NCBI RefSeq assembly: GCF_030867145.1
Contig: NC_134428.1
Coordinates: 22,981,537-23,045,536, forward strand
Origin: Opisthocomus hoazin
Lineage: Eukaryota > Chordata > Aves > Opisthocomiformes > Opisthocomidae
DNA length: 64,000 nucleotides
Direction: 5' to 3'
Positions 12,301 through 63,391 of the stretch are shown piece after piece. The notes beneath the pieces are model-generated. The model saw nothing but the letters and a program-made list of their open reading frames with translations. It was not told the origin of the DNA and searched no databases. Numbering within the stretch: position 1 is the stretch's first letter; each line of letters opens with the position of its first letter. Position numbers and translations under genes: made by a program.

Positions 12301-15300
12301 GGTTGGCAGGGACCTCTGTGGGTCACCCAGCCCAACCCCCTGCCCAAGCAGGGTCACCCAGAGCAGGCTGCACAGCACTGCATCCAGGCGGGTCTGGAAT
12401 ATCTCCAGAGAAGGAGACTCCACAGCCTCCCTGGGCAGCCTGGGCCAGGGCTCCGTCACCCTCAGAGGGAAGAAGTTCTTCCTCGGGTTCAGCTGGAACT
12501 TCCTCTGCTTCAGTTTGTGCCCGTTGCCCCTTGTCCTGTCGCTGGGCACCACTGAACAGAGTCTGGCCCCGTCCTCCTGACCCCCACACTGCAGATATTT
12601 AGAAGCATTTCTAAGGTCCCCTCTCAGCCTTCTCTTCTTCAGGCTGAACAAGCCCAGCTCCCTCAGCCTCTCCTCGTAGGAGAGATGCTCCAGTCCCCTC
12701 ATCCACTCCTGCTATAAAAGTAGCTACGTAAGAAAAACCTGCATGCCTGCTGGCTTATGACCGTGACTGCGAGACTCTACCCTGCCTGTCAGGCTCGCTG
12801 TGTCAGATTAGATGGGATATCCCTCGGGATAAAGCCGAGGGAGACTTCATCCCTTGTTAGGCTCGGTGGGTTACAGCAGAGCTGTGGTGTGCGCTGTGTG
12901 GGTGTCTCTTCCATCACGTGCTTCATCTGGTTTTGGTTTCGAATGTCTACACCCATCAGTGGCAGCTGGTCCCAAACCTTTTGCGCTTCGGCAGCTTTGC
13001 AGCTTTGGGCAAAACCTGCGCTCTCCTGCCTGCCCGAGCGCTCAGAGGGAAGCAGAGGGGTTTCCGTGGAGGAGCGGGACCTGCAGGAGAATCCTTCCCG
13101 CTCCGAGTGCTGCTGTAGTGTCTCGCCTGTAATGTGCAGATACTCTTTAGCAGCGTCTTTCCTCTCTGGGTGCTTCTGCAACTTCACTTAAATTTTAAGG
13201 AATTTAACCAGTGTAATAAAGTGGTATGAATGCTGCTAAGGAGGGGTTTGTCTGCTTTTGCGGAAGATTCTTGTGTCGTGCTGCTTCCCGGTTGATAAAT
13301 AACAAGCCCATGCGCAACTGTAGCACTTGCAGCCCTTCTGTTTTCCTTTTCTGCAAAGTGTGTGACTGGGAGACGGTTGGTTTTGATCCAAAATGTAGAC
13401 CCTTTGCTCAGCGCTCTCCCCTGGTACAAGAAAGGGCTTAAACAGGACCCGGGTCCTGGACGCACGATCCCACCTGCGCTGCAGCAGAGGAGGAGCAGGC
13501 GTGCAGTGGTATCGCTCTCTCAGGGTACATTAAGGCTGAGATTAGAATGCCCAGCTCCTCATGGCCTACTTCAGAGATGGATGTAGTCATTGCAAATGCA
13601 ATTTTCTCTGTGGTTTGTTGGTGGCTTGTCGCTGCCTCGTCAGCAGGTCCTGGCGGGGCTCGGCAGGTTCGTTGCCTGCGGCCACATCACAGCCAGGGCT
13701 GCGCAGGCTGGCGTCTGCCCGCTCCCTCCTCCGCTTCTCTCGGGATTCGGGATGGGCAGGGTGGCATTTACTTTCCGCTGTGTTTTTGTGGAGCGGGGCT
13801 GGGTTGCCACCACCGTGGGAGCACTCAAATGTGGGATGTGCCGCCCCATAGCATTGGTTTATTGAACAGGCTTCCAGACCCCGGTTTTCCGTTGCTCCCC
13901 TTGCTCTAGCCCATTTCAGAGGCTCCAGCTGCGTTTCACACACTGCTGTCCTTTCCTCCTCCGCTCCGCAGCACGTGGAGGAGCTCGGCCTCCAGGGAGC
14001 AGAAGCGTTTCCACCACGTCCTTGCAGGGCTGGCGGGAGTTATCCCACGCTGTCTTGGTTGCTTTTCTCAGAGCTTCAACATCCCAGTGCCCCTGCTCTG
14101 GAGGAAAGAGCAGGTGTCGTTTGGGCGGTGCAGCGCTGGGATTTCCCTGTATTTCCAGCCTCAGGAGCTCAGTCTTGTTTTGAACCCTGCAGCCTTGCAT
14201 CGGTAGCACATAGTTTGTCCTTCGTAACACATAATAGCGGGACAAAACTGCCTGCAGTCTTGCTAATCCCTTTCTTCTCCTGCCTCTGTAATGCCAGCGT
14301 AGCGGTAGGAAATTGCAAGAGAAGGGCTAGGAAGGGGACAGCCTGAATAAACTGTACAGCAGCTCTCTGTTCTTCCTGGGAGCGGACATTTAGCCTCCAC
14401 ACAGTAGAATGATCCAATTTAACTGTTTCTGGTCTCTTTTATCGCTGTGCTGTGTTTTGTCAAGCTGCTGCTGTTGTCTGCTGGGTGTGGGCGCTTCCAA
14501 CCCTCCGCTCTGATCGCCTCTCTCCTCTCTTGCAGCCCGACCTGCTGAACTTCAAGAAGGGCTGGTTGACAAAGCAGTATGAGGACGGGCAGGTGAGTCT
14601 GGGAGAAGGTCTGCCCTTCGCATCAGCCTTCAGTGCCACGGTCGGTCCCGGTTTCTGGCAGCTGACAGCCACTCCAACGTGCCAGCTGTGCAGGGGCTGC
14701 TTTCAGCGCTGCCGAAGCCCCGATGTCCATGCAGGGTAGATCAGTATTGGGCCGTGCTCGAGATGGGAGAATCCAGACGTAGGCACTCGGGGCAGAGCAG
14801 CGACAGGGAATTTGCACGGCTCTGGAGCCGGGCAGCAGTGGCTGTGTGTGAGCCCTGTGCAAGCGGTGTTTGTCTTGGAGCGGGAGTAGCTGGTGCTCTG
14901 TCCTGGGGAAGTTTCAAAGCCCCACGGCTGGATATCGAGTCGTGTGTTTCTAGGGAGCCAGGGCAGCTTAGATAGCAGCGCTGGTTTCGTGTTCCCGTTC
15001 TCGTATTAGTCTCCTCTCCCTTGTGACCCAGCAACCTCTTTGGCGTCAGTAATGAGGCTCAGGAAAGGTCTCCTAAGCGCCGGGGAAATGGCAAAGCCAA
15101 GAAATAAAGAAGTGCCTCTGAGCTGGCGCTGAGTGAAGCAGCCCCTGCCGTGTTCCTCCTGTCCATTCCCGGAGGGATGCGGGATGTGTGGCTCTATCAG
15201 AGCCTTAGCGATGGGCATTGATGCCAGGGCAGTGTGGGTCCCTGGCTGGTTGCACACCATCCCTTGTCTGGATTTCCTTCCTTCCTGCTCAGCCTGGTGA

Positions 15301-18300
15301 GGGAGAATGAGGATGACTTGCCCACGGCTGCGAGTGCCGTGGGCTGGGCTCCGCTGCGGGTACCCACTGGTGTGTTGGGCCCTGGGGCTGAGGACCCATC
15401 TGCAGGCAGCCAGAGCAGGAGTCAGCTGCTGGAGCGAGTGCTTGATTAACTGAAAGCTGCCCTGGGGAAGCCTGTGCCTCTCTGGGAGCGTGTGGAAGGA
15501 GTATTTGTATAGAGCAAGGGCCAGGAATAGTCTCCAACTCAGTTTCTAGGTACTGCAGACAAACCATGAATGTTTTACTGCTTTTTTTAATTGTTTTTTT
15601 TTAATAAAAAGTCCCTCCAAGGCTTTAAGTGCGGCCACTAAAAGCATCGTCTTAGTGGAGCTAATGGAAAGGCTCCAACTGCCCCATGGCTCTGGCGATG
15701 TTTCACCATCACATGCAGGATTGGTGACGCTGAGGGTCCGGTGCTCTGCCGGTGCGGCAGCGCTGGGGAAATCGGGGTCCTGGCAGTGCAAACCATCACG
15801 GTGTCCCTTGCATTGCCGACTGTTTGGGTCTCCCCTTCCCCTCGGGAGGGTCTCTTTGTGAAGCCGGGTGTGGAGCTGGGAAGGGAGAGGCTGCGAGCTG
15901 CCTCCCTGCGGAGCATCGCTGCTGGGTGACCTGTGATGAGCTGCCCGGGCTTTGCTGGTAACTTCCCCATCTCGGTTGTTTCCTAGTGGAAGAAGCACTG
16001 GTTTGTGCTGACCGACCAGAGCCTGAGATACTACCGGGATTCGGTGGCGGAGGAGGTAGGAGTCTTCCCCAGTGGCATTCAACCCATTGCTCTGCACCCA
16101 GGGCAGCCACAGGTGCTCTTAAGCTGACCATGGGCAGGTTGTCTTCCCAGATGCCGGGGTCCTGGAGCACCGCTCTTCTGGGCTTTGCGCTTCCCGAGGA
16201 CCTGCTGCGTGCCTCCCCGCGAGCCCACCGCGCTCTGGGGTTGCAAAGCACTACGGCTTATTTTACCTCTTCCCTCTCCAGGCAGCTGACCTGGATGGAG
16301 AAATCGATTTATCCACGTGCTACGATGTTACGGAGTACCCGGTTCAGCGAAACTACGGCTTCCAGATCCACGTAAGGAAAATGTGGGCAGGAGGAAGAGT
16401 CCGGCTGCGGGACGGCCGATGGGGCTGCTCATGCCGTGCTGCTGCCTGGGGATGCTCATCGGAGACAGGGAAAACATCTCCCCAGACACCTAAGAGAGGC
16501 CACCTGGCATCACCCCCTTGCTCCAGCGAGCTGTGGCCTTGGGTTTGAGAGCTGGTTTTTCGGTGCTCAAAAAATGGAGGGGGAAAGAGAAGATTTTGTC
16601 TCAGCGTTAGGGTCTCAGCTGCAGAAAAACTAGCCTGATGGCTGAGAAACGCTGATTCTCCCCGTGAGCGTGCTGGGTGATCGGGGCTGGGTGCAGGGTT
16701 GGGGCGGGGGGGGTGAGAAGGTGCTGGTGGGTGCAGTCAGCTGCTATGAGCTGGTCTTCCTCTCCCCGTAGACGAAGGAAGGAGAGTTCACCCTCTCCGC
16801 CATGACGTCGGGCATTCGCCGCAACTGGATCCAGACCATCATGAAGCACGTTCGCCCCACCACTGCTCCTGATGTAACAAGGTAAAGGGAGGAATTTAGA
16901 AGCCCCTGCAGTTGTCTGGTTTGCTGTGCAGGAGAAACTCGCCCCTCATCCCCTTTCTTTCCTCTTTTCTGAGCCTGTCCGTTCCTGGAAGTTGCGGCTC
17001 TTTCTCACATCCCTCTCTCTGGGCTTAATTTGGATACGCTTTGTGGGGATGCTGATATGCTGAGTTACTCTTAGGCCTGCAGATTTCAAAGAGGGTTGAA
17101 AATGTGGCTTTAATTTGTGCATAGGAATATGAAATACTGTTCCTATATCAAGGCTCCTCTGGATTCCCACCAGGTATTGTGAAACCACTTGGATTCAGTT
17201 GTGCTGGGTTCCCCCTTTCCTCTGGCTACTGTTCAGCACGAGCTGCCCAGCCCCTCCGCGGGTCACGGCAGCACGAGCCCAGGGTTCAATTTAGAAGCTG
17301 TTTGGCTCCGATATATTTTTAAACTCCAGGCAGCGAATCGTCTTCCCTCCTCTTTTGATCTTCCAGATAGCTGCCGCGGCTCCTTCCCCTTTCGCGTTAG
17401 TAGTGCTCGCGTCTCCTCCTGCCGTCAGTGCCAGAGGAAGGGACCCCCCCACTTCACAGAGTGCGATCTGTGAGCGCTTGCGGCTGGGGGTGAAGGGTGT
17501 TTGACCTCCTCACAGCTAACCGCGCCAGCCGCACTCGTACGGGCCACCTCTTACAGGCTTCGTGGACACGGCCGCACCGTTAACTGCGTCTCCTGTCCCT
17601 CCCTGCAGCGAGCAGGTTTTTTGCCAGGTTTGTCCCCACATTGACGGAATGGCTCTTCTCACCCGGGGCTGTTGACCTGGAGATGCTCCAGCCGCTCCTT
17701 CCCCATCCCGCTTGGCACTCGGCCACCGTTGCCCAGCCTTGCCCGAGCTCTGGTGGATCTCGCGGGGGTCTCGGGGAAGCCGCCTCTCTCCTCACTCCTG
17801 TGTATGTTTGATTTCCATGCAATCCCAGGAAAAACTTCTCTTTGAAACTATCCGTGCTGAAGCCCAGGTTGGAAAACTGTGTTCTCTCCTGTATTAACGT
17901 TTTGTGGTTTGTATATCTCGTGATTCACTGCATGCTCCTCCTTTTCTGCACCTCAGATGGGAAGTCCTGCAGTTTCCATTTATTTTTCTTGATTTTCTTT
18001 TTTTTTTTTCCCTTTTTTTTTTTTTTCCCCCCCTTTTTTTTTTTTTCTTGAAATAAAAGCCAGAGAGAAGGGAAGAAGCAGCCTGCTCTTGACACTTGAT
18101 TTCCCCACACTGGTATCTTCCGATGTGACTAGATACGAAGATGAAGACCAAGGAAATTTGAGGGGACCTCTCTGCCTCTAAAGAGCCAGATACATTTATA
18201 GCCTAACAGGTTACTGTAGCACGGTGCTGCTGTGCTCACTGCCTCTGCGTCTGCTCTGAGCCCGTGCAAAGAGGTTTGTCTTGGCTTACCCCAGTGAGAG

Positions 18301-21300
18301 GGTCCAAGCACAGGTACCAGTTGGGCAGTAGCTTGTTAGGCTGCATAAACAGACCGGGAATCTCAGACTTGAGCTGGGGTAAAAGGAATTACAGGTGCAC
18401 TTGTGTTTTCCACCAAGCTGGTTTCGGATGGGGTAGAGCCTGGCACGGGTTAGTCACGTTGTGGAGAAGTTGTGTGGGGCTGTGCTCACCCGGTGCCTGC
18501 TCGCAAGCCCTTTGCCGTGGCATGTGGGTGCACGGGGTGTCCCAGCCCGTCCCGCCTGGCTTCGGGCACGTCGTTAACATCTGCGGCTTGTGGACGGGGC
18601 TGCTGGAAAGCCGGAGGACAGACTGCCAAAGGCTCGTCATGGAGAGGTGGCAAACGTCTGCACGGCGCGGCCGGAGTGTGAGAGGGACGTTAGTCTGGAT
18701 GCTCGGCTGTGCCGGAGGGCGGTGGTGTTCGGCCGGTCCTGGGGGCCAGTCCCGCTCTGCATGCTCTCGTTAACCCTCTGCCATGTCTCCCCTGAGCCAA
18801 ACACACGTTTTCCTGGTTATTCATGTCCTAATTACTGTTTGTATTGCTGCGTGTGTCAGCACCTGGGGAGGGGAGGCAGGTTCTGCACTGCTCCCTGCCC
18901 TCAGCAGTGCCCTGCAAACTGCAGAGGCACTAATTACGCTCTGCTAACGATGACCATGCAGATATAAAATACCCACAAGAAAGAAAGTGGCCGCTTCAGC
19001 GTTGGGTCCTTCTTCAGCTCCCAGCCTTGGTGAGGCTGAGTTCCCCAGTGCCCCCCCCCAGTTCCCTGCAGCCCTCATGTGCTGCTTGTCCACTGTCACA
19101 GCGTGCTCGGCTCACAGCTTGCACTGCTCCCACAGCCACCTGTATTAAAACCAAAAAACTTTGTGTTTTGACCTATAAATACCATTGTGCAGCAAAGACC
19201 CCCCCTCCTGTGTGATCTGAATTAATTTGTCTGGGATGGGAGAGAGGTGTAATGCTTGAGCAGAATTAATAGCCGTGGGGCACCTGCGGGAGATGAAATG
19301 AGGAACTTCGGGTCAGTCTTCTGAGTCTCTTAACTCGGTTCCCCGCGGCCGTCGCTCCGCTCCCTGACACACATCCCGTGCCCTTCGGAAAGCAGCCGAG
19401 GAGAAATGAGCTCGCGAGAGATGTCACCTCTAGAAATGCCGAGCTTCTTCCACGTGGTATTCAGAGCAGCAGAATTTCTGTCTCCTAACAACGTCCAAGG
19501 AGACCCAGGGCCCCTTTTTTCCTAGCGCTCTGCTCCGTCTTAAGACTCCATCTCATCCCCGCTTTACTTATTTAAAATGCAGCTGTAGTCACTGCCTGGC
19601 TCCAGACTGCGCGCACGGCTTTGGAGTCACGCAGTATCTTCTGATGGGTGAGGAGCAAGGAGGTTCCGTCGTGATGCCTTTTGGGTTGATGTCATTAGCT
19701 GGAGGTGACAGAGCTGAAGATGGGATTATCTCTGAGCTGGTTTTAGCCTGTAACTGCTCGAGTTTCTTGAAACCCCAGCTCTACTGAGGCTGTGGTTTGG
19801 TCGTGGGTGAAAGTGCATCGGAAGATACTAGCTCCGGACCCATGCAGCGTCATCTCTTCCGCTCCGTTCTTTGTTTTGGGCACATGGCACATACAGGAGG
19901 TCGCTGGCTGCGGGCGCTGGGCTGTGTTACCGAGGCGGGAGGAGAAGCTGTGGCTGCTGCTCCCTCCCAGTCATGGTGGCCTCGGAGCTTGCGGTCCTGG
20001 GGGTCAGAGCCCAGTGAGCAGCGGTTTGCCTGCAGCGAAGGGCCCGGGGAGCTGCTTTCCAGCTCTTCCCACTGTGCCCTGCTAGAAAGCTTGTCGAGGC
20101 TGTGCTGGAGGCTGGAGCCCGGGGGATGCTATGGTTGTACTGGGAGGGGGGAGAGCCAGGAGCTGCCCTGAGCTGCAGGGCAGTGCCTTGGAAGGCACCT
20201 CGGGGGCTCCTTATAGCAAGGAGGGTTCAGCAGGTGCCTGCCGATCCCTCAGGACAGACTTCCTCTGCAAACTTAGCATACTGCTATTTTCTTTTTTAAT
20301 TTTGATGCATGTTCCAAGGCTGGCATGTCTACATCTAATAAGCTAATACTGCATTATGGATTATCCATAGGTTGGAAACAGTATTGCCCTCCCCTGTTAA
20401 CTTTCCCTGCTTGACGAGTATGTCTCCCCTCTCAACCCACCACTCTCTAACTCAGCACTAAAAATCATCCCTTGCTTGAGAAATCAGCATTTTCAGTGAC
20501 TTCCACGGTGTGTTGAATAACTCTTGCTCTCCTTGCTGCACCAACAACTGCACGTACGGCGTGCAGCCCCGTGCCGGGGTGGCTGCCCGCGCTGCCCGCA
20601 AGGCTGGTTGCCCCGGGGGAGATCTGCGCCTTCAGTGCAGATAGTGGCACGGAGAAGTTTTCGACCCATTAATACCCCGACTTTTGCCAAGCTCAAGGAA
20701 AACCTTCCCCCTGTTACCCAAGACCTCTGGGAGCTGCTCTGTGCTTCTCCGCCCCACAGCTCCGAAGCCAGACTGACTTTGGTGGGACTGGTGGCATCCT
20801 CCCCGCAAGCACGTGACGATGGCCGCGTCGACCGGCGCGTGTGCATGGAGCCCCGCAGCCGGGGAGGCAGGCGGGGAGCCAGCTGCGGGCGCCGGAGGAG
20901 CTTCCGAAGCCTCTTCCCCGCCTGGCAGGATGGCTCAGGGTCGCTGCCTCGGCCACTGGCTGCTGCTGGGTCGCGGTGGCCGGCCCCGGGGTGGCTGCTG
21001 AGGAGGAGCGAGATCGGGATCGGCTGCTCTCCGGGGACCGGGGGGTGCCCGCGAGCAGCCGCTTGCACCAAGGCTTTGCACACCAGCAACCCTGGGGAAG
21101 GGCAGCGGCGGCTCCTGCGCCCGAGAGGCAGTGGGGGACGGAGGGGCAGGGGGGCACCCACATGGCATTGGCTTGGGCTTCCAGCAGCCCCTTTCCACCC
21201 GGCTCTTCGAAGCATGCCTGGGAGCGCCTGGCCGTCTCGAGCACCCACTGACACTTTTCTTCACCCTCTCTCTGTCCTCGCAGCTCCCTGCCGGAAGAGA

Positions 21301-24300
21301 AAAGCAAAACAAGCTCTTCCTTCGAGACTAGTCCAAAGCCGAGCGAGAAGCCAGATGTGGAGCAAGCTGAGCTGGACCCGGAGCAGAAGCGGAGCCGAGC
21401 CCGGGAGCGCCGGCGAGAAGGACGATCCAAGACCTTTGACTGGGCCGAGTTTCGCCCCATCCAGCAAGCCCTGGCGCAGGAGCGCGCAAACGCTGCAGAC
21501 TCCTCTAAGAGCGGCTCTGCCGCCTTCCCCGGGGACGCCGGGGCCACTGATGCTGACCCGGGAGAGCTGGAGCGGGAGCGGGCCCGGCGGCGGGAGGAGC
21601 GGCGCAAGCGCTTTGAGATGATCGATGCCGTGGACGGGGCAGGATCGGAAGAGGTGCTAAGGATGGAGGTGGACCGGATCCTGCCCATCTCGACGGACAT
21701 CAAACCGCAGAACGTCCACGTCGAGATCGAGCAGCGCTGGCACCAGGTGGAGACCACGCCGCTGCGGGAGGAGAAGCAGATCCCCATCACGCCCCTGCAC
21801 CTCGCCCACGCCGAGGACCGGGACGAGGGGCTGACGAAGCAGCACTTGACCACGCTGCTGGAGAAGGAGGTAAGGTGGGGTGCAGGCCACTGCAGGAACT
21901 GTAGGAAGCTGAGCAAGGTTTAAAAAAGCTGCGTTTGTTTCTACTTTGTGACAGCGACGAGTGGGGATGCTGTAGGATCCCCTGGGAGCTGGCAGGGCAC
22001 AGATCTGTGTCCGTTCCCATCTGGCTCTGCTGGCAGCCTGCCTCTGGTGAGATGGGTACAGTCCACGTGTGTTAAGCAGATTCTAAATTCAAGCCCATGC
22101 TTCTGTGTGCCTCTGCAGCTGTAGATTAGTGTCTGCAGTTATGTCTACCAGGCTATAAGCTGGCTTGGGTTATAGCACACAGCACAAAGGTTCCCTGTTT
22201 GCGGAGCCCGCATCAGGCCATCTTACGATTTTAGGAACAGAGAGGGGGAGGCTCAGCTCGCTTGGAAGAGGTCCACGCCTGGGATAACAAAGGTTTTTGT
22301 TGGTTGGGCTGAAGGTGTATTAGCAGGAATGGAAAGGGTGCAGGCGTGGAGTAAGCAGGAGTATCGCTGATCTGAACCGGGCTGGGATTTGCCTGGGTCC
22401 TGCCTGGCACGAGCTGGTGCCATTCGTCCTTAGCTTTGCGGTGAGCTTTACGAATTAAACTACCGCGTAGCTTAGTTCTTTCAGGGGGAGGGATCTTGCC
22501 TGGCAAAATGAAATCCAGATCCCAGAGCAGAGCAAAGCAGTGGTGCCATCAAAAGCCCCGTTCATTCTGCTCTGCGTCCCCTCCGAGCCGCCGACTCCTG
22601 ATGTCCGACCCCCTGCCCACTCCCTGGACGCTGTCTCTGTTCGTGTCCCTCCAGCTGGAGCAGAAGCAGAAGGAGGCCCTGGAGCTCCTGGAGCAGAACC
22701 GGCACCTGCAGGACCAGCTGAAAGTGGCACTGGGCCGGGAGCAGAGTGCCCGGGAGGGCTACGTGTTGCAGGTAGGAGAGCGGGGAGGAGAGAGAAGCCT
22801 GTCTTCCTCTGCGCCCGAAGGGGACCCTGGGTGGGCTTCAGTCCCGGGTGTTCGTGGGGGCACCCTGGTCGATGTGGAGATCTGCACCGCTCTGCAAGAG
22901 GTTTGACCTTCTTGGAAATTTTGCTCGTTCTGTAGTCGTACCAGGATCATCTGCTTAACAAAACCACTGAGCTGGGATGCGGTCGACAGAAGATAGCATT
23001 ACCTACTGGCGTTCCCGAGGGAAAACAGCCATGGGAGACAGATGGGACCTCAGCAAAGTCCACCTCGGATCCATCCTGTGCTGTGTTTGCCTATGCAGCA
23101 GCTCTTCCCCCTTGCTGTGCCCCGGGTTGTCCCCTCGGGCAGTGAGGTCCACCTAAGGCTTGCGAAGCCTCTCGTAGCCCAGCGTTGCTCCTGGCCGGGG
23201 AGTTTGTGTGGCGGTTACGTGGGCAAACACAGCACCTGCCGGCGTACCCCCCCGGCCCGTTCCCCGCAGCCAGAGAGGGATTTGCACCGGCACGACCTGT
23301 TGTCACCTTGGGTGGTTTCTTCTGTTACCAGATGCCTTTCTTGCAAAGCCTAGAAGTGTGTTTTGGAGGTTCTGGCAGAAGAGATGGGAAAGTCTCTTGG
23401 GAAGCCTTTCCTCCCCTCCTCCAAACGCAGCGGACTTTTTCCAGCCCTTGCTCTGGGAGCATCTGTGCCTGGAGGAGCTGTGGTGCCTGCAGGGCAGCTT
23501 CTGGCTGCTCTCCTGGGTCCGTAGTCCTGTTTTGTGCAGAGTCAGCGTTTTGACCTGCTCAAATCTACTTGGCCAAACTGGCTCTGGATTGAAGTCACCA
23601 CACGCTGTACTCCCAGGGCAGCAAACCCGGTGTCGACGCTGAGCCTTGTGTCCTTATTTCTCACGGGAGAAATTTCCCCCGAAGAAGGCACCAACTAAAG
23701 CACAGGAAGTTCTGTCTGAATATGAGGAAGAATTTCTTCACTCTGAGGGTGACAGAGCACTGGAACAGGCTGCCCAGGGAGGTTGTGGAATCTCCTTCTC
23801 TGGAGATATTCAAGACCCGCCTGGACAAGGTCCTCTACACCCTGCTGTAGGTGACCCTGCTTCGGCAGGAGGGTTGGACTAGATGACCCACAGAGGTCCC
23901 TTCCAACCCCTACCATTCTGTGATTCTGTGAAGTTGCATGGGCAGTGGAGCCGGCCCAGGTCGGGGGGCATCTTGCCTTCCTTGCCGGAGATCTCCTTGG
24001 AGGAGATATTAATGCATTTATTTCTGGAGTCCCCGAGCTGACAGTGCTGGCTTGGAGGAGCTCCATTTTCACTTGGCAGTGTTGGAAAACTAACCAACTC
24101 CCACTTCCCTGGGGCAAAGGTATCTGACCTTGCTTTGCCTGGAGCCTGGAAAAATCAGGGAATGAGGCTAAAAGCTGGATGCTGAATCCGCCGTCAGATT
24201 GGCCGTGTTGAGGTTGGCAGCAGTGCCTCGATACGAGGAGGGGGGGCAAGAGGGGAAGTCTGCAGAAGGGCTGAGCAGATCGTCGCTGCAGTAAGAAGTG

Positions 24301-27300
24301 ACCCAAGCTTGGACCTAAAGTTTGAAAGGGTTTTTGGAAGGACTGGGGGCTTTTTCTTGCTCCAATCTAGTTGTTCTGAGCATTTCCCTTACATTTCCCC
24401 GGGAGCAGAGGGATTAAAGTGCCGAGGCAGAAGGGAGGAACCCCACCAAACCCTGCTAGGGTGAAGGGAGTGAAAGCGCTGAGGCGGGGGTCTGCGGCCC
24501 CAGACTGCGGGCAAACATCACAGCCCTTTTTTTTTGGACGGACCATCTGAATTTCGCGTGCCCCTCACTTCCATCATGCCTAATTTTGGAGAGGTTCCGA
24601 CGTTGTCTGTGGGGCGGGAGGATGGAGGAGCCTGACTGCTGCCAGCCTGTCCCTCCCGAGCTGTCCGGGGGGCACCGACCCCTCCTTGGCAGCACGAACA
24701 GCCCCATCCAGACCCCCAGGCGTTGCCCTGACATCAAAGACGCTGCGCGTTTCGTGAGGCAGCTGCTGAGATGCCCACCCCGATGCATGTGCCATGCACC
24801 AACGCCTCTCCGGCCTCGCGTAACCCCTCTCTCGCTCTGAGCTTCCTCGGGATGGGGCACCCCAACTTTGAACCCTACTGGGGGGAACGGCGGGGGCTCC
24901 TGCTCCTCGCAAACGGGCCGGAGCCGTCCCCGGCTCTGGTCACGGCGGGCGGGAGGGGTCACGTACTAACCTGTCCCGGGCAGATGTTCTTGCATGTTTT
25001 TGGTGTAAAGCATGAAATTTAACTTAACGTAACTGAGTGTCACATCTGTGGGCTTTCCTTATCAGCAACCAGAGTACAGCAAGGCAGGCCAAATTCCTAG
25101 GCTTCACGCTGTGCTTCTCTCGCCTCTTCCTGTCTGTGTATTTTTTTTAAAGATACATAATTTCTGTCGCCTTTTGCATGACTCTCTCTGTGAGTTTTCT
25201 CTCTGCATGCTACATTGCTTTGGTTTGAATCTCACACAGGTTGGTTTCTTTTATTTTACATTCTCATCACACCTTTTCCCTCCCTTCACTTGTCGGGCTT
25301 TTTATTTTGTCCTTTGTTTTCTTTATTTTGCAGGTTAGAGAAATTAGACCCTCCCTAGTCTTAAACTGTAGCGTAACAACATCTCTTTAATGCGATGAGC
25401 AGCCACTAAGTCCTGTCTGGCAGTCGCAGAAATGACATCGCCACGCCGGCTGTCCTGCCTCCCTGCGTCTGGGTGGGATGTGATGTCATTTGCTGTCACC
25501 TCGCTTTCTGTCGTTGCTTTTGGTCGGTAGGACTGCGTTACCTGAACTGTGCACTTTTTGTTTCACGACAAAGCAGACAAACGTGCTAAAAAAAGCAAGT
25601 CCTTTCTTCTCGACCTGTTCCCATCCCCTCCTCCTCCTCACCCTTCCCGTTTTTCTCTCGTCTGTCCGTCTCTGTTTTACTGCTGGTGTTCCTTTTTCAT
25701 CGTTTTTTGGTTCTATTTGATTTTGGTTTTTTTTTTTCCTTTTAGCCTGTTACTGTACAGCTGTTTTGATGTTGTGGTCCGTGTTTTCTGTTACTGGAAA
25801 GCAGCTGTTGCTCATTCAAAAAAAAAAAAAACAACCAAAAAAAGTTAGTTAAAACAAACAAAAAAAATTGTGCCAGGAATAAATCATCCCAATTGGAGCA
25901 TGTGGGTGGCAGCCAAAGCGCTGCGAGGAGCTTTTCCGTGGCCTATCTGGCCAGAGGTGTGACACTCAGAAGGGAGAGCCAAGAGTGTTACTAATCTAGT
26001 ATTTAATCAATTTTTTTAAGACCGAGGTGGCCACCTCGCCATCAGGTGCCTGGCAGAGGCTCCACAAAGTCAACCAAGACCTCCAAAGCGAGCTGGAAGC
26101 CCAGTGCCAGCGCCAAGAGCTGATCAATCAGCAGATTCAGTCACTGAAGCGCAGCTACGCCGAGGCCAAGGACGTGATCCGGCACCACGAAGCCGAGATT
26201 CAGAGCCTGCAGGCGAGGCTCAGTAACGCAGCAGCCGAGCTCTCCATCAAAGAACAGACCCTGACCAAGCTCAGGAGTGACCTGAGGAGCGAAAAGGAGA
26301 AAGCCAAAGAGCAGCTGGAGGAGTGGCAGCACGGCGAGGCCGCGCTCAGCTCCCAGCTGAAGGCCAGCGAGCAGAAGCTGAAGAGCGCGGAGGCTCTGCT
26401 CCTGGAGAAGACCCAGGAGCTGCGGGACCTGGAGATGCAGCAGGCTTTGCAGAGGGACCATCAGAAGGAGGTGCAGCGGCTCCAAGACAGGATCGCTGAC
26501 CTGAGCAGGCAGCTGAACACTAGCGAGCAAGCGCGGATCCTCATGGAGGAGAAGCTGCAGAAGAATTACGAGGCTTTGCTGGAGAGCTGCGAGAGGGAAA
26601 AGCAGGTTTTAATACGGAGTCTGAAGGAGGTGGAGGATAAGGCCAATGAGTATGAGAACCAGCTGCAAAATAACGAGCAGCAAATGGAGATTCTGCAGAA
26701 GGAGAAGCTGAGCGCGAAGTTCGAAGGCAGCGAGCTTGTCCACCAGCTGGAGGAGCAGCTGGTGATGAAGGAGACCAGCATCCAGAAACTCGCAGAGCAC
26801 ATCAAGGAGCTCGAAAGAGAGAGAGATCAGATCAAATGTCGGTTCCACGAGCTCATGAATCAGGTTGCTGAGTCAGATAATGAAGTTGCAAAGCTGCAAG
26901 CAAAGTTGAAAATGGAAGAGACCAACTACCACAACCTGGAGCAGTCGTTCGAGGAGGTGTCGGATCAGTTCCAGGGTGTGCAGAAGGTGCTGAAAGAAAA
27001 AGAAGAAGAGCTGAGACACGTTAAGGAAATGCACTTGAGAATTTTGGAGAAGAAAGATCAAGATCTCAGTGAGGCTTTGGTTAAAATGGTTGCTTTAGAT
27101 AGCAGTTTAGAGGAGACGAAAGTAAAGCTAAAGGCCAAAGAGGAGGCTTTAAAGAAATTAGCTAGTGTAGGCACAGGTCCGTGTGCTGAGGAGGCGGAAG
27201 ACCTTGGCCCCAGTCTTGAGGCTGATGAAAGTCATCCATCCCAACTGGGGCAGCCTCTGCAAACTCAGGATGTCCTCCCAGCTCTGACTTACGCACTGAA

Positions 27301-30300
27301 GGAGGAGGAGGAGGATGAGGTTCTTGAGACCAGCCAGAGGCAGGCAGAGGAATTCGGCTCCCCGTCCAAAGCTGTAGAGCTCCAGGACCAAGAGTTAGTT
27401 CAGAAAGCCTTAGCAAAGCCTGATGTAGGAATCATGGGGGCCAAGAGGCAAAGAATCCGTTTTTCAAGCATCCAGTGCCAAAAATACATCCATCCAGATG
27501 GATCAGAGAAAAACTGGACAAGCAGTACCTCTTCAGATACTAGTCAAGACAGATCACTGTCTGAAGAAAGCATGTCATCAGAGCCAGCTCTTGGTTACCC
27601 GTCATCAGGGACAAGCGACTCTGAGACCTATCTTTCAATCATCCATTCCCTGGAAACCAAGCTTTATATTACAGAGGAGAAACTCAAAGATGTGACAATG
27701 AAGCTTGAAAGCCAGCACGGCCATAATCAGGAGACGCTTATTGCCCTCCACCATCAGTGGGCCAGCACAGAGTCTCAGCTGCGGGAACAACTTCAGACCA
27801 GCTTATCCCAAGTCAGTGCTTTGATCTCACAGCTGGAGAGTGAGAGGCAGGAAAAGTTCAAGCTCATAGAAAATCACGTTAGTGAGCTGGGAGGTTTCCA
27901 AATGAAAAATGATCAAGCGCTGACTTGCTTGGAGAAGTGCAGGGAGCAGCTAAGATCTTTGCCCAAATCAGACAAGGAAAAAGAGGGTGATTTGTTCCTT
28001 GTTACTCTGTCCAGCATGGAGACGACCTTATCAAACGCAATCCAAGCCTTGAGAGGGGCCTCAGTCCTGTCGGAGTATCAGCAGAGCGAGAGCCTTATCG
28101 CGGAAAGCCCCGCTCCAGAAGGAGGTTTGCTGGGAGAAGAGGAGCACGTCTCCAAGGAGCAGCGAGCGGAAACGTTTGACGCCGGCCAGCTGAGATGGCT
28201 TTCTGAGAGAGTGGCATTAGAGGCCTCCCTCATCAACCAAATAGCGGAGTCTTTGAAAAACGCAAGCTCTGAGATATCTCAGCTTCTGAGAGAGATCCAG
28301 GGAACAGCTGACGTGGTTTTGTTGGAGCCAGCAAATGTTTCTCATACAGCAGTCGACTTGGCCGGCGTCCTATCTAAGAAGCTGCTGCTGGAGGGGGAGT
28401 TCTGGAGCCAGGTGGAGGAGCTGAGAGTGCACTTGAGCACCAGGGAAGGAGAAGCCGAGGGCAAAACAGAAACAACAGGTCTGGGCTTTTCTCCGTGTTT
28501 TCTCAGTGCTGTAGCAGATGCTACATTGATCAAGGCAGAACTTGGATTTGTTGCACAGAAAATGAGAGAATCTTTCCATCAGAGATTAAAAACAATCGAA
28601 GAAGACCTCCACAATACCAAAACAGCTCTCCAGCAGCATAAATGTATGTTGGAGGTGATTGTCAAAGTGTACAGGACTCCTGATTTTGACAGAGTTATGC
28701 ACCAGATTTCTGAAGCACTTGAAATTCAGGAAGATGCTTCAGAGAGAACCCAAATCTCCTGGGATGGGAGCTGTCTCCAGATGAAGCCGTGTCAGGAATT
28801 AGCCAAGGCGGAGGAGATTGGCAGCCTGCCGGACTGCAGTAGTGAAGCTCTTGTTTCCATTCAGGAAGATCTTGCCCAACAACTAAAGGACAAATCAAAT
28901 GTTCTGAAGGAAATATCTGTTGCCTTACTCTCTCTGCCTCCTGAAGAGGCAATGAGAGACTGTCAGAAGCTCCTGAAGATCTCTCAGAGTCTTTCGTATC
29001 GTTCATGCATGGGAGACCTGGAACGGTATTCCTCTTTGTTAGTCCAAGATGCAATTGTTCAGGCTCAGGTTTGCTATGCTGCTTGCAAAATCCGACTGGA
29101 GTACGAGAGAGAGCTGAAGTCCTACAAGGAGTCCTTGCAGAGCATGGACGCGCTCTGCCAAGAGCGCGTGAAGACGGTCTCTCTCCTTCGGGATGAGTAC
29201 GAAGACTTGCTTAGAAAGCAGCAGGGTGAGTACGGCGAGGTGATCGCCATGCTTGAACGGGAGAACGCTGATCTCAAAGCAAAGGTGTCCCAGCTTGACA
29301 GTCAGCGAAGGCTGTTGGAGGAAGAAGAGCATAAGCACAGCAAGAGCTTGAGCGAATTGCAGGGACGGTATGAGGAGGAGATTCGAAACGTGATAGAGCA
29401 ACTGAACAGGACAGAGGATGCTCTGAAGGCCGAGAGGACAGAGGGCCTCAGCCAGCTGGATGCCATCGTCCGTGACAAGCAGAACATGGAGCGGTATCAC
29501 CTGGAGCAGATGCAAATGCTGGAGGACAAGTTCCAAGCCAAGATCAAGGAGCTGCAGGTCATCCACGGCGAGGAGCTGCAGGCGTTGCAGGAGCACTACA
29601 GCCAGAACCTGCAGCGCTTGCAGGAGACCCTGGATGAGTACCAGAGGCAGCACCCGGAGACGTCCCCTGCGGCAGGCCCAGGTGGTGGGGACGCCTGGAT
29701 GGCTGGTGGGACAGGTGGCACCGGGCAGGGCCCTGGCAGCGACCTGGACTCCATGCACGGCCTGAGGGAGCGCATCCAGGAGCTGGAGGCGCAGATGAAC
29801 GTCATGAGGGATGAGCTGGAGAACAAGCATCTGGAGGGGAACGCTTCCACCTTGAGGGAAAAATACCAGAAAGACTTTGAAAACTTAAAGGTCTTGATAC
29901 ATTTAATGCTTTACACTTTACGTTGCTGAGTGCGCAGGAGGGCGCGTTTGGTCCTGGGGTTCACTTGCTGAACCAAGGGGTGTCCCCCAAAAGAGCCAGC
30001 ACACCAAGCAAGCCCCACAGTGTTAGAAGGGCCTCTGTGAAGCACGGCGTTTCCCTTTTCTCCATGCTGGGGTATTCTAAATGCATTGCTGAGGGCTTGC
30101 TCTCGGTGAGAGAGCTGGTGGTTGGAGGTGGTCTCTGATCTTTAAGGTCCCTTCCAACCTTTGCCATTCTATGTAGAGGGAGGGAGGGTTTTGAAGTAGC
30201 TTGATGACTTCACGTTGTCCTTCAGTTGGGAGACCGTAATGTTTCTCCTTGTACCTGAGGAGTACGTTTTGTTCGTGACTTCTCTTTAAAAGCATTCCTC

Positions 30301-33300
30301 AACTCTGTCTTTCCTAGTCTGATCAAATCTCCAGTCTGTCTCCGCTGCCCTCAGAAATGTCAGATGAAACGGAAACTTAACGCTCTCAAAATGCCTGTTC
30401 CTGGGGAAAGCAGCTGCAAGCAGATGCCAAATTCTGCAGCAAAGCAAAGCTCTTCTGCACGAGGCTGCAGGGAGAACCACCCTGGTGTTGCACACCAGCA
30501 GTTCTTCAGCAACAAACAGTGCACAGTGACGGGAAACCCAGGCTGGGCGCAGAAAAACGCGGTGGCAATGAAGTGCCCATGTTCAGATTGCTCCACCAGG
30601 CAGGGCTGGCTGTAAAACCAGCCTGGGACGGTACAGCGTCTGAAAAAACCTCTTGGGTTTGGTGTTTTGCTTCTGGTTGGAGAGCGTTGCAGTTAGGAAG
30701 TGGGTGTAGGGCAGCAGAGGACGCCCGGCAGCGCGCAGAGAGGCTTCCAGGGTGAACGGGCAGCCCGAAGGGCAGCGATGCCGGCTGCGTGCCGAGGCCG
30801 TGCTGGTGAGGCCCTCATGGAGCGTTGGCAAAAACGTGAGCGAGCTGGCTTCCAGCCGCAAGATCTTGAGCGTAGCTTTGGGCTGGGGGTAAAGCCCAGC
30901 TCAGCTCTGGCCAAAAGCTGGTTTTAGCCCGGGGAGAGCAGTGGTTCTGCTGCGTCCTGTCAGGGTCAATTGGGTGTCCTGGGGAGGGAGAGCTGCTGGG
31001 GAGATGGGAGGGAAGCGGAGGTGTTCCCTGAACGCCATCTCCTCCATCTTAACCCTGAAGAAGGACAAACCCTGCTTGAACGCCCGGCTCAGGTCAGCGG
31101 GACACACAGGTAACGCCATGTCCTGCCTGCTGGCACCGAGGAGGGGCACCGGTACCGGGGGATGTTCTTGCTTTGGAAGAAGCAAGAAAGACCAGAACCA
31201 AAATAGAGGCTGAAAAATAATAGCAAGCACTGAACCTGAACCTCCTGCCTCTGTTTTCGGCTGTGCCCTGCCAGACTTGCAGCTTGCCCGGTGGGAAGGC
31301 AAGCGGTGTCTTCTGGGCAGAGCGGCGCGGCCTCTCCCTGCAGCTCTGTAGGAAGCAGAGGGACAGACAGCAAAACAGAGACCTCCCTTGGTTAGAAAGC
31401 TAACCAGGCGATGGGAAACCGGTCCGGTTTACAGGCTAAAATGTGCTCAGTTCTGCTCTGCTGAGGCTGATGGAGGATCTGTGAGAGGCTGGTCTGTACG
31501 TGTTCGAATGTCCTGGGTTTGCAGCAGTGCATTTACAGTACGTTAAATACTGGGTCTCCAGCCAGAGCTACGGAGCAGCGTTCGCCATTTTCCTCCAGCG
31601 TTAGAGGTGCAGTGAGGAATCCTGCGATGCGGCTTCCTGCCTCTGTAATCGGCCAAGTCCAGGCAGGTTCTGGCACTGAGTTATGAGTTTCAAAAAAAAA
31701 AGGGCTGAGAAAATGAAGGATGCCTCAGGATTCAAACTTAAAGGGGAGGAATAAGAGCACCAGAGCTGAAAATTGGGAGTGGCACAGATATGGAGCGTTA
31801 GACGACGAAGCGATGCTGAAGAGTGTGTGTTAGAGCAGGTCAGCGGGTGTTTGACTGTCGTGAGCAGCTTTGTCAGTGGGGGAGGGAATTTGTCCCCCTT
31901 AGATCTCCCGTGGAGTCCCAACGGCTCCCTCGGTGACAGTTCTCGCTGCCCGCAGAAAACACGAGTGTGGATCAAGAAGAAACGCGCTGAGGTCAGGAAA
32001 TAAAGCCAGCCTGTAACATCAAGAGGGAGAGAAGCCCGGTGCAGTGCTTGGCATCGGGGTTGCCCCCGGGCATCTGACGGGGCTGGTGCTGGGCATCCCC
32101 GGTGCCGTTCCCAGCTCGTGGCTCCTGCCTGCCCGTGGCTTGGCCTCCCAGTAATCAATTAGCAAGTAATTGCCCGTGCAGCATTTGGAGCAGTACTCGG
32201 TTGGGAATTAAGGTCCTGTTGCTGCCATGAGTCATTTGTTTTCCACCCCAGAGGCGGCCGTATAAAATCAGGCACTGCAAAAGAGAGCAGAAGGGGCACA
32301 GTGGGCGCTTTTTTTGTTATTGTTTTTAACACATCTTTGCATTCCCCAATCATATCTGACCCCAGACCTACCCCATCCTTCCCTTTCACCAGAGCTGTCA
32401 GGGGTCGAGCTGGCAGGACAAGCTCCGACCTTGCGAGGTCCATCTTCAGCTGGCTCCTCTGTGGCTGGGAAGGGAGAAGATCCCCGTGATGGGACTTGGG
32501 TGCTGACCCACCCACTGGTGTGCAGCTCCAGGCAGGCTCACCACTGCTGTGATGCTGGCCCTGGGCTCCTGGGCCAACCCCTTCCCTCACCCCTTTTGCA
32601 GGCAACATGTGAAAGGGGCTTTGCAGCCATGGAGGAGACACACCAGAAGAAGATCGAGGACCTGCAGCGGCAGCACCAGCGGGAGCTGGAGAAGCTGCGG
32701 GAGGAGAAAGACCGCCTGCTGGCAGAAGAAACGGCTGCCACCATTTCAGGTACGGGGACACGCCAGAAGGTTCCCTGCGGTGGGGTAGCTCCGTGTTGAT
32801 GGGGACATGGGGATGGCTTTGCTCCAGTCCTGGTCCTTCTCCAGGCTTGGTATCCCTCTCCTTGGCTGTAACATGGTCTGATCCATTTTCTGTTCCATCT
32901 CAGAAAGGCCTTAGTCATTCCTGTGGTTAATTTATTGCTGATTTCACGCTGAATTCATTCTTCAGTGCCCCAGGGAGTTTTAAAGCGCTGGAGCCCAGGG
33001 TCTCTGCCTTAGAAGTCCCCCAGTCCAGGAAGAAACATGTGAATTGGACAATCGTTTGGACTTTATGAAATAAAGAGTGGGATTTGCAGAAGCTCCTGTG
33101 CTGCTTTGCAGCCAGGGGCACAGACTGAAGGGGCCACAAAGCAGTGGGAGGTTCACTGGGATGACTCGGGTTTTGTTCCTTTGAAAAACAAACAAAGCAA
33201 AATTCAAAAAAAATCTGCCCTTGGGTGGAGCGGTGCTGGGTGCTACGCTGTGCTGTCCCCCGCAGCCATCGAAGCCATGAAGAACGCGCACCGGGAGGAG

Positions 33301-36300: not shown

Positions 36301-39300
36301 GAGGGTGGAGGAGCCCCAGCCCTGCTCCACACAGCAAGCCCACGGGCACCACACTAACACTGTTTTTTTCACTTCTCCCCAGATATTATGAAATCAAAAA
36401 GCAACCCTGATTTCTTGAAGAAAGACAGATCCAGTGTTAGCCGGCAACTAAGGAATATCAGGTCAAAGGTGAGCTCAGATCTCCTTCCCCGTGATGACAA
36501 TGCCCAGCATTCCTCGCTGGTGGAGGTCCCAGGTGGGAAGAAACTGATAGAGGAAGAAAACGGAGAATTTCCCAGTTGCTAGCGCTAGCCTGGATGGCAC
36601 TGGGGAGAAAAGTGAGCTTTTGACTGGGAGACGGCTGGCTGCGCAGCCCGGCAGGGCACACGCGCCTGGCCCTGCGGAGATCCAGGTGGGAAGATGCTCC
36701 CCGCTTAAAAAAAATGATGAATTCAGTTCACCCTGTTGTTTGGTCTTTCCCAGGAGGACTCTCCCAGTGTTTGCTCCCCATTTTCAGCTGACATTTAGGT
36801 GGTGTCGATAGGCGGAAACGCGCACGTCATTCTAGGTTTTGCAGTGTTCATCACTGCAAGATTTTTGGTCTTTATTTGGAAGAACGATTCCCTGGTCCTG
36901 GGCGTAGTTAACACACGTCTCGCTTGTGTGTTAACGTGGTGCAGGTGGCCCTGTATTTCTCCGGCCGTTCTATACTCGCTGTTGGTCCCAGAGCCCCGGG
37001 ATGCTCTGCCAAGCTCGCCTGCTTGGCCTGCAGAGCTCCATCGTGCTACGCGCTGGGACCACAGGGATAAAAAGGGCAAATAAAGCCGCTGAGAGGTCAC
37101 CGTTAAACGTAGGTCAGTTGGAAGGAAGGCTAGCGTGGGCAAAACCTGCTTTGCCTCTCACCACTGTGTACCTGGTGTCTTGTGCTGATGTTTGAAGTGG
37201 TTGGGACCTCGGGCAGAGCAAGAAGCTGGGCAGGCAGAAGGCTTCTAGCTCGGTGCCCGTGCTGGGGAAACAGTCAGCACCCGAGCTCTGCGAGCGGGAG
37301 GCCCTCAGCTTGGGGCGTCTGCGCTGCACCCGGTAAATGCAGAGAGCGTCTCTGGGCATTTCGGGGGCAGCCCAGAGCTGCTGGGCCAGGTCTGATGCTG
37401 GGTTTCCCTTCACCACTTCAACTCAGACCATTTGTCTTGTGGTCCCCAGCGTGTGTTGCTTGGTGGGGGAAGGAGGAGAGGAGAGCAAGCATGGGCTCTG
37501 CCTGGGCGCGCTGCCCGCTCGCATCGCTGCTGGGCCGGGGGGCTGGGGCTGCGCGAACGCCAATGCATTTCGGATTGATCAGCTTCTTGTTTTGTTTTGT
37601 TTATTTTGCTTTCTCCTTCAACAGTCCGTTATTGAGCAGGTCTCATGGGATAACTGAAATGAACCCGAGTCCAGGTTCCCTGCCACGTAGGTAAACAAAC
37701 CGGCACCCACCAAGCGACGCAGCTGCCCGCTGGAGCAGCCCACTTTTGCATGCACTGCTCACACCTCCGTGGCACACGAGAGCCCTTCTTCTCTTAATGA
37801 CTGACTGGTTTATTTGTGGCTAATTATTTTCCTGGGGGAGGGGGAAAGGGAGGGGAGAAGTCAGCGGACCCACAGTCCGTACGAGATGCAATCTCTGTGG
37901 CTCTTCCCTGGGCAATGGGGCTTTCTCGCCTTCCTGCTCCTCCCACCCTCGCCAACACAGCTCACCGTCACAGAGAGGACTGGGACGCGGTGGGACACGT
38001 TTTCCTGTTTGCTGTGTTGGGAGCGCGGGACGCTGAGTGTGCATGCTTGAATGACTCTGCATGCCTCAGACTAAACTCCAGCAACGTCCAGGTCTTGTAG
38101 GAAAAATAGCCAGTTTGCAGTTGGCCAGGCGGAGGAGCGGGTCAGTGATGCCTAGAAATGCATTTGCCGTGAGGGCCTGTAGAGTGTGAAGTGGTGGCCC
38201 CCATCTCACCTCCAGAGGGGATCTCCTGGGCTGCCCTGAATTTCCTTCACCCGTAATTGCCATTTCTTTAGGTTGAGCCGTGCCTGAGCAAAAGACTCTT
38301 CCTTGCCCAGTAACCTCCTCCTGCTCTCCAGGCTTCCTCCAGCTCCCCGGTGTCCACCCCGCTGCTCTCCATCCCTTGGCACCGCGCCTTCATCCCACAC
38401 ACTGGCCCAAGGCTTCCGAGCTCACCCAGCAAAAAGAGGGAGCTGACGAGAAACGAGGCCAATCCTAATGACCCAGATACCTCGAGTCACTGGAGCAATA
38501 GTGAATTTACTGGCCCGTGGTAAAGGCTGAGGCGAGAGCACCTGCAAGGGAGGTTAGAGAAAAGAGGGGAGCTCCCCAGTATGGTGGCAGAGGGGTGGCT
38601 GGAGAGCCCCAGGAAATCAGGAGGAGGATCCTTTAATCACAGATTTCATCCTACGTTGGTCTCCCTTCATCAGGCTCCCCTCGCCAGCAGCTCAGATGGG
38701 TTGTGAGGCTGCCCAAGGGGTGAATTTGCTGAAATTTGTACCATCAGGCAGAGCAGTCAAATGGCTTCTGTTGCCTCCTTCCTTCTAATGAGAAATCGGC
38801 TGCACAAACTGGAATGCAGGGGTTGCTGCCCAGTTAGAGGCCCAAAGTCAACTTCCTTTAGGAAACGTGTGCTCAGAGACCCGCGTCCCGAGAGACCCTG
38901 CTGCCTGTTGAAAAGAAAGCATACGGCATCTGTGAACTCGGACCGCTCCGTTTCAGTGCCTTCCTTCCCGTGCCGCTTCCCAAAGCCTTGCTGTGTTTGT
39001 GGGCCTGTGGGAGGAGAAACGTTCACAGAAATACCGTAACCATGGAAATCTGCGCAGCCTCGGGCCAAGTTTATCATGGAGTCCTGCCTTGATAAACACA
39101 CGTTGAACAAAACCCAGCCCCAGAGCCTAACCTGCTGCTGTGACTGCGCAGTCCCCTGGCCGGGGAAGCAGAGGGGGAGATGGCTGCCCGTTCCTAGGAG
39201 GGGCTTCGCATTCAGGGCTGCGCCTTTTGAAGCCGCCACGTCTTGGTCTGTGAAGCAAATAATGTTCCAGCTGCAGAGTGGATTCCTTGCAAGTTGTAAG

Positions 39301-49970: not shown

Positions 49971-50209
49971 TTACTGTCTTTGGGTAAAAAATCTGTAGTT
50001 GACGGGGTTGTACTCTTCCCAGATCCTTTCGAACTCCTCCAGGAAAGGCTTCACGTACTCGGCGTCCTCCACCACCAGCACGTTCTCCCGGTTGCTCTGG
50101 ATGGCTTGCGTGGTCCAGTTGAGGGAGCCAGTGATGAGCAGCCGGCGGTCCACGATGGCGAACTTGTGGTGCATGTACCCGCTCTCCTGGTCATGGCGCA
50201 CCTGGATTC
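49971..50209 (-). CDS. PLD6: PLD6 exon 2
   Basis: The acceptor is TCTTTGCAG before 50209. It reads [20 protein letters not shown] and on through the HKD motif to the stop at 49973-49971. The end FFTQRQ is shorter than mammalian PLD6. The intron between the exons is only 68 bp (50210-50277). Confidence 0.95.
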
Positions 50210-50671
50210 CTGCAAAGACACGGCAGCTCGCAGCCGTCCCCTCGGCACCCGGCCCCGCCGAGGCCCCCCCGCCTCACCGGCGCGCCGGAGCAGGCCGATC
50301 TGCGAGCCCGGCAGCCCCATGTACTGCGCGTCGGTGACGACGCGGACGCGGACCCCGCGGCGGTGGAGGAGGCAGACGGCGTGGCCCAGCTGCGGGCTGG
50401 AGAAGGCGAAGAGGCAGAGCTCGAGGGAGCGGCGGGCCGAGAGCAGGCGGCGCAGGAGGCGGCCGAGGGCGCAGTCCCCCCGCGGCAGCGGACAGGGGCA
50501 GGGCCGCGCCGCCCCGCCGGACCCCGCCGCCTCGGCCAGCAGCGCCTCGGTGCACCTGGGCGGGGAGGGGAAGAACAGCACCTCGCGGACCGGCCGCCGC
50601 CGCCGCCGCCACGCCGCCAGCGCCAGGGACAGCGCCAGCGCCAGCGCCGCCAGCGCCAGGCCCGCCCGCAT
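49971..50671 (-). CDS. PLD6: PLD6 (mitoPLD/Zucchini), mitochondrial HKD phosphodiesterase, 2 coding exons
   Basis: PLD6 is a single-HKD member of the phospholipase D superfamily on the mitochondrial outer membrane. It acts as a dimer in primary piRNA biogenesis (endonuclease) and has been reported to hydrolyse cardiolipin. The spliced product is 210 residues. Residues 3-20 are a hydrophobic anchor followed by five Arg. C40, C58 and C60 are zinc-finger cysteines. [12 protein letters not shown] begins the PLD fold and the HKD motif is H145-x-K147-x4-D152, then [11 protein letters not shown]. The usual zinc His is Arg64, with a Cys at 67. The tail is about 40 residues shorter than human. The start at 50671 is the only Met giving the anchor. 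Human PLD6 also lies between MPRIP and FLCN. Confidence 0.95.
50278..50671 (-). CDS. PLD6: PLD6 exon 1
   Basis: Starts at ATG (50671-50669) with [14 protein letters not shown]. The donor is CCG|GTGAGG after base 50278, with one base (G) carried. It encodes the membrane anchor, zinc-finger-like segment and first half of the PLD fold up to [10 protein letters not shown]. It is very GC-rich (Ala/Arg/Leu codons ending in G or C). Confidence 0.94.
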
Positions 50672-50930
50672 GGCCCCGCCGCCGCCCGGCGCATGCGCGG
50701 GGGCTCCCGGCGGGGGAGCGCGGCCAGGGCGGGAAGTTACCTCAGGGCGGGGGGCGCGCGGCGAGGGCGGGAAGTGCCCGAGGGGCGGGGGGAGCCGAGG
50801 GCTCGCTTCGCCGAGTCCCCTGCCCACCGCCTTCCCTCAGCCCCGAGCCCGCCGCCTGCCCCGAGCCCCCAGCCCGCTGCCTTTCCTGAGCCCACCACCT
50901 TCCCCAAGCCCCCAGCCCGCCACCTTCCCG
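50672..50930 (-). promoter_or_regulatory. PLD6: PLD6 CpG-rich promoter with NRF1 and E2F-like motifs
   Basis: The region upstream of the PLD6 ATG is extremely GC- and CpG-rich, and the island also covers exon 1. A perfect palindromic NRF1-type site, GCGCATGCGC, lies at 50689-50698. Two GGCGGGAA boxes (E2F-like) lie at 50728-50735 and 50766-50773, 38 bp apart. NRF1 sites are typical near start sites of nuclear genes for mitochondrial proteins. No TATA box is seen. The transcription start is not determined. Confidence 0.6.
50822..50930 (+). repeat. Degenerate C-rich tandem repeat upstream of PLD6
   Basis: Imperfect units around CCCCGAGCCCCCAGCCCGCC and CCTTCCC repeat four or five times. They give the Pro-rich open frames seen on the + strand. 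It is a minisatellite-like part of the CpG island. Confidence 0.7.

Positions 50931-53883: not shown

Positions 53884-63391
<9,508 letters not shown>

Follow-up and report, generated by a model that had tools for sequence, protein, structure and literature searches.

The closest described system is the giant exon of human MPRIP itself. According to a 2024 Nature paper (PMC10901741), this gene is among those with giant protein-coding cassette exons that are bound and repressed by SAFB, and its giant exon is spliced in upon SAFB depletion; this paper, like the others cited here by PMC number, was accessible in part, and what we take from them holds for those parts. Giant coding cassette exons of ANK3, ANK2, MAP2, MAP4, MAPT and CLIP1 also lengthen cytoskeletal proteins, and several of them are tissue-restricted, although the host proteins differ from MPRIP (PMC10901741). 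A further comparable case is NIN exon 18 (2.1 kb), which is under QKI5 control: a very large coding cassette exon, again in a gene for a cytoskeletal protein, and with a QKI motif close by (PMC6429586). Here we analyzed a window of 64,000 nucleotides (nt) from the hoazin, Opisthocomus hoazin (contig NC_134428.1, positions 22,981,537 to 23,045,536), in which the MPRIP gene carries a giant exon. A giant exon in this gene is already known in kind, having been reported for human MPRIP; the hoazin exon lies in the same gene and has the same character of a giant protein-coding cassette exon, and we infer that the two are orthologous.

We consider it likely that the hoazin exon is a real coding cassette of MPRIP which is skipped by default, is included only in some cells and encodes a helical spacer. 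What speaks for this is the length of the open frame, the codon usage, the phases of the flanking exons, the continuity of the heptad register, the weak donor and the pattern of regulatory motifs. The exons concerned are the following, with positions counted from the first letter of the window.

22655..22771, plus strand: upstream flanking MPRIP exon, encoding a short coil (LEQKQKEAL...REGYVLQ), placed by acceptor, donor and phase
26021..29890, plus strand: giant MPRIP exon, the probable cassette, 3,870 nt, 1,290 codons, phase 0 at both ends, placed by open frame, splice sites and codon usage
32602..32749, plus strand: downstream flanking MPRIP exon, start of the C-terminal coil, placed by acceptor, donor, phase and the paralogous exon

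None of the 1,290 codons of the giant exon is a stop, and its 3,870 nt are divisible by three. The stop-to-stop frame around it (26000..29929, 1,309 codons) is the longest of the window, with a runner-up of 401 codons among 132 frames listed. In 30 simulated windows, generated from order-2 statistics taken from the window itself, the longest frame had 466 codons and the typical longest 272, and the observed 1,309 codons are far beyond chance. A codon-usage model trained on 528 codons from other MPRIP exons ranked frame 0 best in all ten segments of the giant exon. Within the exon there is also an antisense open frame (29039-29884, minus strand, 281 codons), probably a codon-bias shadow.

The acceptor of the giant exon reads ..ATTTTTTTAAG|ACC at 26021 and ends in AAG, and the donor reads TTAAAG|GTCTTG at 29890. 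The upstream exon ends in phase 0 at 22771 (..GYVLQ|gtagga), and the downstream exon starts in phase 0 at 32602 (cag|GCAACATGT, ATCERGF..). Since both flanking boundaries are in phase 0, inclusion and skipping of the giant exon each preserve the frame. The exon is internal, longer than 1 kb, open throughout and neutral to the frame whether it is present or absent, as expected of a giant coding cassette exon. A sequence-only reading of the same DNA had proposed an open exon of 1,290 codons with phase 0 at both ends that is optional in frame, and the frame, the boundaries, the simulations and the compatible phases of the two flanking exons all bear this out.

That reading had also placed the donor among the weakest of the gene, and here our result goes beyond the claim. 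Scored with splice-site frequencies, AAG|GTCTTG reached -3.82 bits, the lowest of 14 scored donors, while the 13 others lay between 0.87 and 8.51 bits; two donors stand outside this set, one mis-placed by a base (about 2.4 bits by hand) and that of the exon at 10771, which was given none. Among the 149 GT dinucleotides scanned at 26100-29929, the donor ranked only 56th, and the exact 3' edge of the exon is therefore set by its phase and position and not by the strength of the site.

Such a weak donor, together with a frame that continues just 12 sense codons beyond it, invites the thought that it might be ignored. Translation would then continue to the stop that ends at 29929, with cleavage of the transcript after the AATAAA at 31999, the one AATAAA/ATTAAA in the downstream intron, yielding an MPRIP without the MYPT1-binding coil. 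This alternative last exon would require a 3' untranslated region of about 2 kb, the phase 0 of the donor suits the next exon, and in human MPRIP the giant exon has been described as a cassette (PMC10901741); we regard the alternative last exon as unlikely. The giant exon could also end elsewhere, at the GT at 29225 or by way of an extra small exon in 29891-32601, and so encode a different protein. The GT at 29225 (AGG|GTGAGT, 6.0 bits) is indeed the best of the 149, but its phase 1 is incompatible with the phase-0 downstream exon, and the last segment (residues 1162-1290) retains frame-0 codon usage, which makes a different exon end improbable.

We then turn to elements around the giant exon that may control its inclusion.

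23935..25209, plus strand: five TGCATG (RBFOX-type) motifs in the upstream intron, at 23935, 24784, 24991, 25175 and 25204
25990..26007, plus strand: ACTAAT...TAAT, branch-point-like and also matching a bipartite QKI element, located 31 nt ahead of the giant exon
29891..29936, plus strand: weak donor GTCTTG (-3.82 bits) followed by an A+U-rich stretch, possibly a TIA1-like context

The TAAT begins 14 nt after the ACTAAT at 25990, and bipartite QKI matches of this kind occur twice on the plus strand of the window. ACTAAY is found within 60 nt upstream of two of 16 MPRIP acceptors, those of the giant exon and of a late exon at 36383-36468. Skipping accompanies QKI binding in the 100 nt ahead of a 3' splice site, and MPRIP is QKI-responsive, the exon not being stated (PMC6028027); the ACTAAT at 25990 lies within this distance. 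In NIN, the QKI motif lies downstream and promotes inclusion (PMC6429586), whereas around the giant exon of MPRIP ACTAAY occurs only upstream, predicting skipping. The upstream intron holds five TGCATG against a simulated mean of 0.81 (none of 200 simulations reached five) and three ACTAAY against 0.57 (four of 200 reached three). The excess of TGCATG is milder than this comparison suggests, because the plus strand of the window carries 25 copies and about 1.3 would be expected at the window rate. A scan of the downstream intron found neither TGCATG nor ACTAAY. RBFOX sites upstream of an exon go with skipping, and a U-rich stretch after the donor is a feature of donors helped by TIA1. From +7 to +46 past the donor of the giant exon the U content is 0.38 and the A+U content 0.62, the highest among 15 donors compared. 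Rfam gave no matches at gathering scores.

The DNA alone does not show skipping, and one may ask whether the exon is simply constitutive in the hoazin, with the long MPRIP as the only or the main form. The giant exon carries enhancer-like, purine-rich trimers at 102 per kb, about twice the density of the introns on either side (46 and 58 per kb). In mammals, however, the canonical MPRIP is the short form, and the donor scores far below the 13 others; we regard constitutive inclusion as very unlikely.

The giant exon encodes an insert of 1,290 residues, 146.7 kDa, with an isoelectric point of 4.95, which can be divided into four parts.

26021..27160, plus strand: first coiled-coil block, residues 1-380, with the clearest heptads at residues 16-100, 181-245 and 236-345
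27161..27625, plus strand: acidic Ser/Thr-rich linker, residues 381-535, with no heptads, a net charge of -18 and KRQRIRF at residues 475-481
27626..29050, plus strand: block without recognised domain, residues 536-1010, probably mostly helical (Pfam, AlphaFold2)
29051..29890, plus strand: second coil-like block, residues 1011-1290, with a Gly-rich break at residues 1209-1243

Heptads were assessed by comparison with shuffles in 35-residue windows, uncorrected. The signal was strong across most of the three stretches of the first block, every window within residues 386-540 stood at 0.3 or above, and later signals were patchy (near residues 611-655, 721-785, 1026-1065 and 1186-1230). In the linker, acidic residues make up 19%, basic ones 8% and Ser/Thr 21%. 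Several coiled coils and an acidic Ser-rich linker had been proposed from sequence, and both the heptad test and the composition agree. The upstream exon and the first coil of the insert share their best heptad register, a coincidence with a chance of 1 in 7. No Pfam match fell in residues 536-1010. An AlphaFold2 model of residues 538-1047, made without alignment, was all helix with no strands, at low confidence (mean predicted local distance difference test score 48). A sequence search of the PDB with the giant exon gave nine weak matches (E 0.03 to 0.85). Three Pfam matches were found on the giant exon in total; Pox_A_type_inc narrowly passed its cut-off (E 1.2e-4 over 17 residues) and was rejected as a coiled-coil cross-match, and Smr and Cas6_N were below their cut-offs.

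Short linear motifs were sparse. Patterns for EB1, LC8, 14-3-3, SILK and MyPhoNE each had no match in the giant exon, and the sole RVxF-like motif of the insert is RIRF at residues 478-481 in the linker. With a mean of 0.49 in shuffles (0.22 for the strict form), RIRF is just a lead and not significant by itself.

Several observations weigh against a regulated coding cassette with a helical insert. Five of the ten segments (residues 388-1032) have frame-0 codon scores below zero (-0.09 to -0.28), and these still exceed both intron controls (-0.61 to -0.74). The acceptor is of ordinary strength, with 11 pyrimidines in 16 positions against 9-15 at 15 other acceptors. The best heptad registers differ at the downstream junction, and they differ at the short-form junction too. 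The ACTAAT at 25990 may be merely the branch point, and the motif counts are drawn from one species. Purine-rich trimers are no denser in the giant exon than in flanking exons (78, 94 and 149 per kb). Finally, the A content of the giant exon is 29.3%, compared with 22.5% in the window, and exceeds 33% in one of ten segments, whereas the human SAFB-repressed giant exons all have more than 33% adenosine with the exception of MAPT (PMC10901741).

The regulated cassette remains the reading that we prefer. Skipping would join 22771 to 32602 and produce the usual MPRIP with its roughly 1,000 residues, and this direct join reads as canonical human MPRIP. Inclusion would put the 1,290 residues after the PH/RhoA-interacting part and ahead of the C-terminal coil, as the sequence-only reading had it, and the coil itself is presumably MYPT1-binding. 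Default skipping could result from the very weak donor, a QKI-type element overlapping the branch point, RBFOX-type sites confined to the upstream side, and repression by SAFB. The SAFB step is borrowed from human cells (PMC10901741), and we infer the regulation in the hoazin. The most likely role of the insert would be that of an elongated helical spacer with some flexibility, fixing the distance between the actin/RhoA end and the myosin-phosphatase end, and the RIRF of the linker might also dock PP1. The change in reach or multimer state that the sequence-only reading proposed for the scaffold is likewise conjectural. A more elaborate two-site phosphatase scaffold, in which RIRF docks PP1, the C-terminal coil holds MYPT1 and residues 536-1010 bind a partner of their own in tissue low in QKI and RBFOX activity, strikes us as improbable.

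That the frame is a relic, which earlier selection kept open but which is now seldom spliced in and has no function as a long protein, would fit the very weak donor and a literature search that found no functional study, but is very unlikely given a chance of about 3e-28 for 1,290 open codons in random sequence of the same composition and the splicing-in of the human exon on SAFB depletion (PMC10901741).

The insert appears to be unique in the source genome. Searched against 1.48 Gb in 415 contigs at a threshold of E 0.001, with 15 candidates scored, it returned only its self-match, and the 510-residue core (residues 538-1047) returned only its self-match at E 1 (6 candidates scored). Collections of viral contigs and genome contigs gave one and nine pattern matches, respectively, none of which was confirmed. 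MPRIP itself has a paralogue on another contig (C8), which is presumably TRIOBP. Alignments to it cover 19-159 positions at 30-91% identity and are colinear with MPRIP. Identity is 63-91% in the four PH exons, 30% over 159 positions in the exon that follows, and 64% over 39 residues in the counterpart of the downstream exon 32602-32749, while the 39-residue upstream flanking exon aligned to nothing significant there (E 2.1). The presumed TRIOBP shares with MPRIP the PH exons, the following large exon and the C-terminal coil exons, but differs in having no giant exon in between. About 2.7 kb separate its last two matched exons, where the insert would sit; the longest overlapping plus-strand frames there run to 269 codons, which is the frame of the upstream exon itself, and to 174 codons, and a tblastn search with the insert over 40 kb gave nothing better than E 3.7. 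Because the giant exon is absent there, the sequence comparison suggests either that it arose in the MPRIP lineage or that the lineage of the paralogue lost it. Before its PH exons the paralogue has its own Arg/Ser/Pro-rich, repeat-like frame of 475 codons (L005 7668-9092; G000:C8:15682668-15684092, plus strand), which we take to resemble TRIOBP-4/5. The two paralogues hence carry large extra coding stretches at different places.

Identification of the host gene relied on several lines. Of 38 MPRIP peptide patterns, 26 were found; they lie on the plus strand throughout, in the right order, between about 10.8 and 36.4 kb, and the eight N-terminal patterns are among the 12 that were missing. Exons joined from 14536 to 21869 encode a PH domain (PF00169, E 5.5e-19), and a PDB sequence search with the PH part gave nine matches, mostly PH domains. 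The exons for the PH domain, the RhoA-interacting part and the C-terminal coil follow one another as in MPRIP, which identifies the gene. A PDB sequence search with the C-terminal coil gave no match at 0.01. Further along, a PLD-like frame at 50051-50836 (minus strand) in a G+C-rich island scored E 7.6e-6, slightly under the Pfam cut-off, among eight frames tested, and is probably PLD6; a folliculin exon lies within 61155-61658 (minus strand, E 7.6e-26). We take the human gene order to be MPRIP-PLD6-FLCN, with which the synteny of the window agrees. The identity of the gene, also named by the sequence-only reading, is well supported by the peptides, the PH domain and these neighbours. A purine-rich tandem repeat (1759-1879, period 19/38) lies upstream of the located MPRIP exons.

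Published work on MPRIP splicing has mostly dealt with other exons. Exon 9 is the subject of PMC3302840 and PMC9249217, exon 23 is named in PMC10156590 and PMC7290316, a 63-bp exon appears in PMC9312936 and probably also in PMC9723635, where the coordinates fit a similar size, and the exon is not named in PMC6613909. As the accessible parts of these studies mostly treat small exons, the long form has been little explored. Human proteogenomics yielded three peptides from an "extended exon" MPRIP variant, given without coordinates, which need not be the giant exon (PMC5834625), and a gene table from chicken hair-cell single-cell RNA includes MPRIP without isoforms (PMC6855842). Our literature search found no functional study of the giant insert, with most subscription journals outside its coverage. 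This agrees with the earlier remark that the sequence-only reading knew of no assigned function for the insert; as to the novelty of the long form, a giant cassette exon of human MPRIP is already in print (PMC10901741).

The hoazin exon is ordinary in kind, with an unusual weakness of its donor. The window adds a sequence-level case, combining a very weak donor with a QKI-type branch point, to the little-studied giant in-frame cassette exons. If the exon is included in specific cells, an actomyosin regulator would gain a second form that is more than twice as long.

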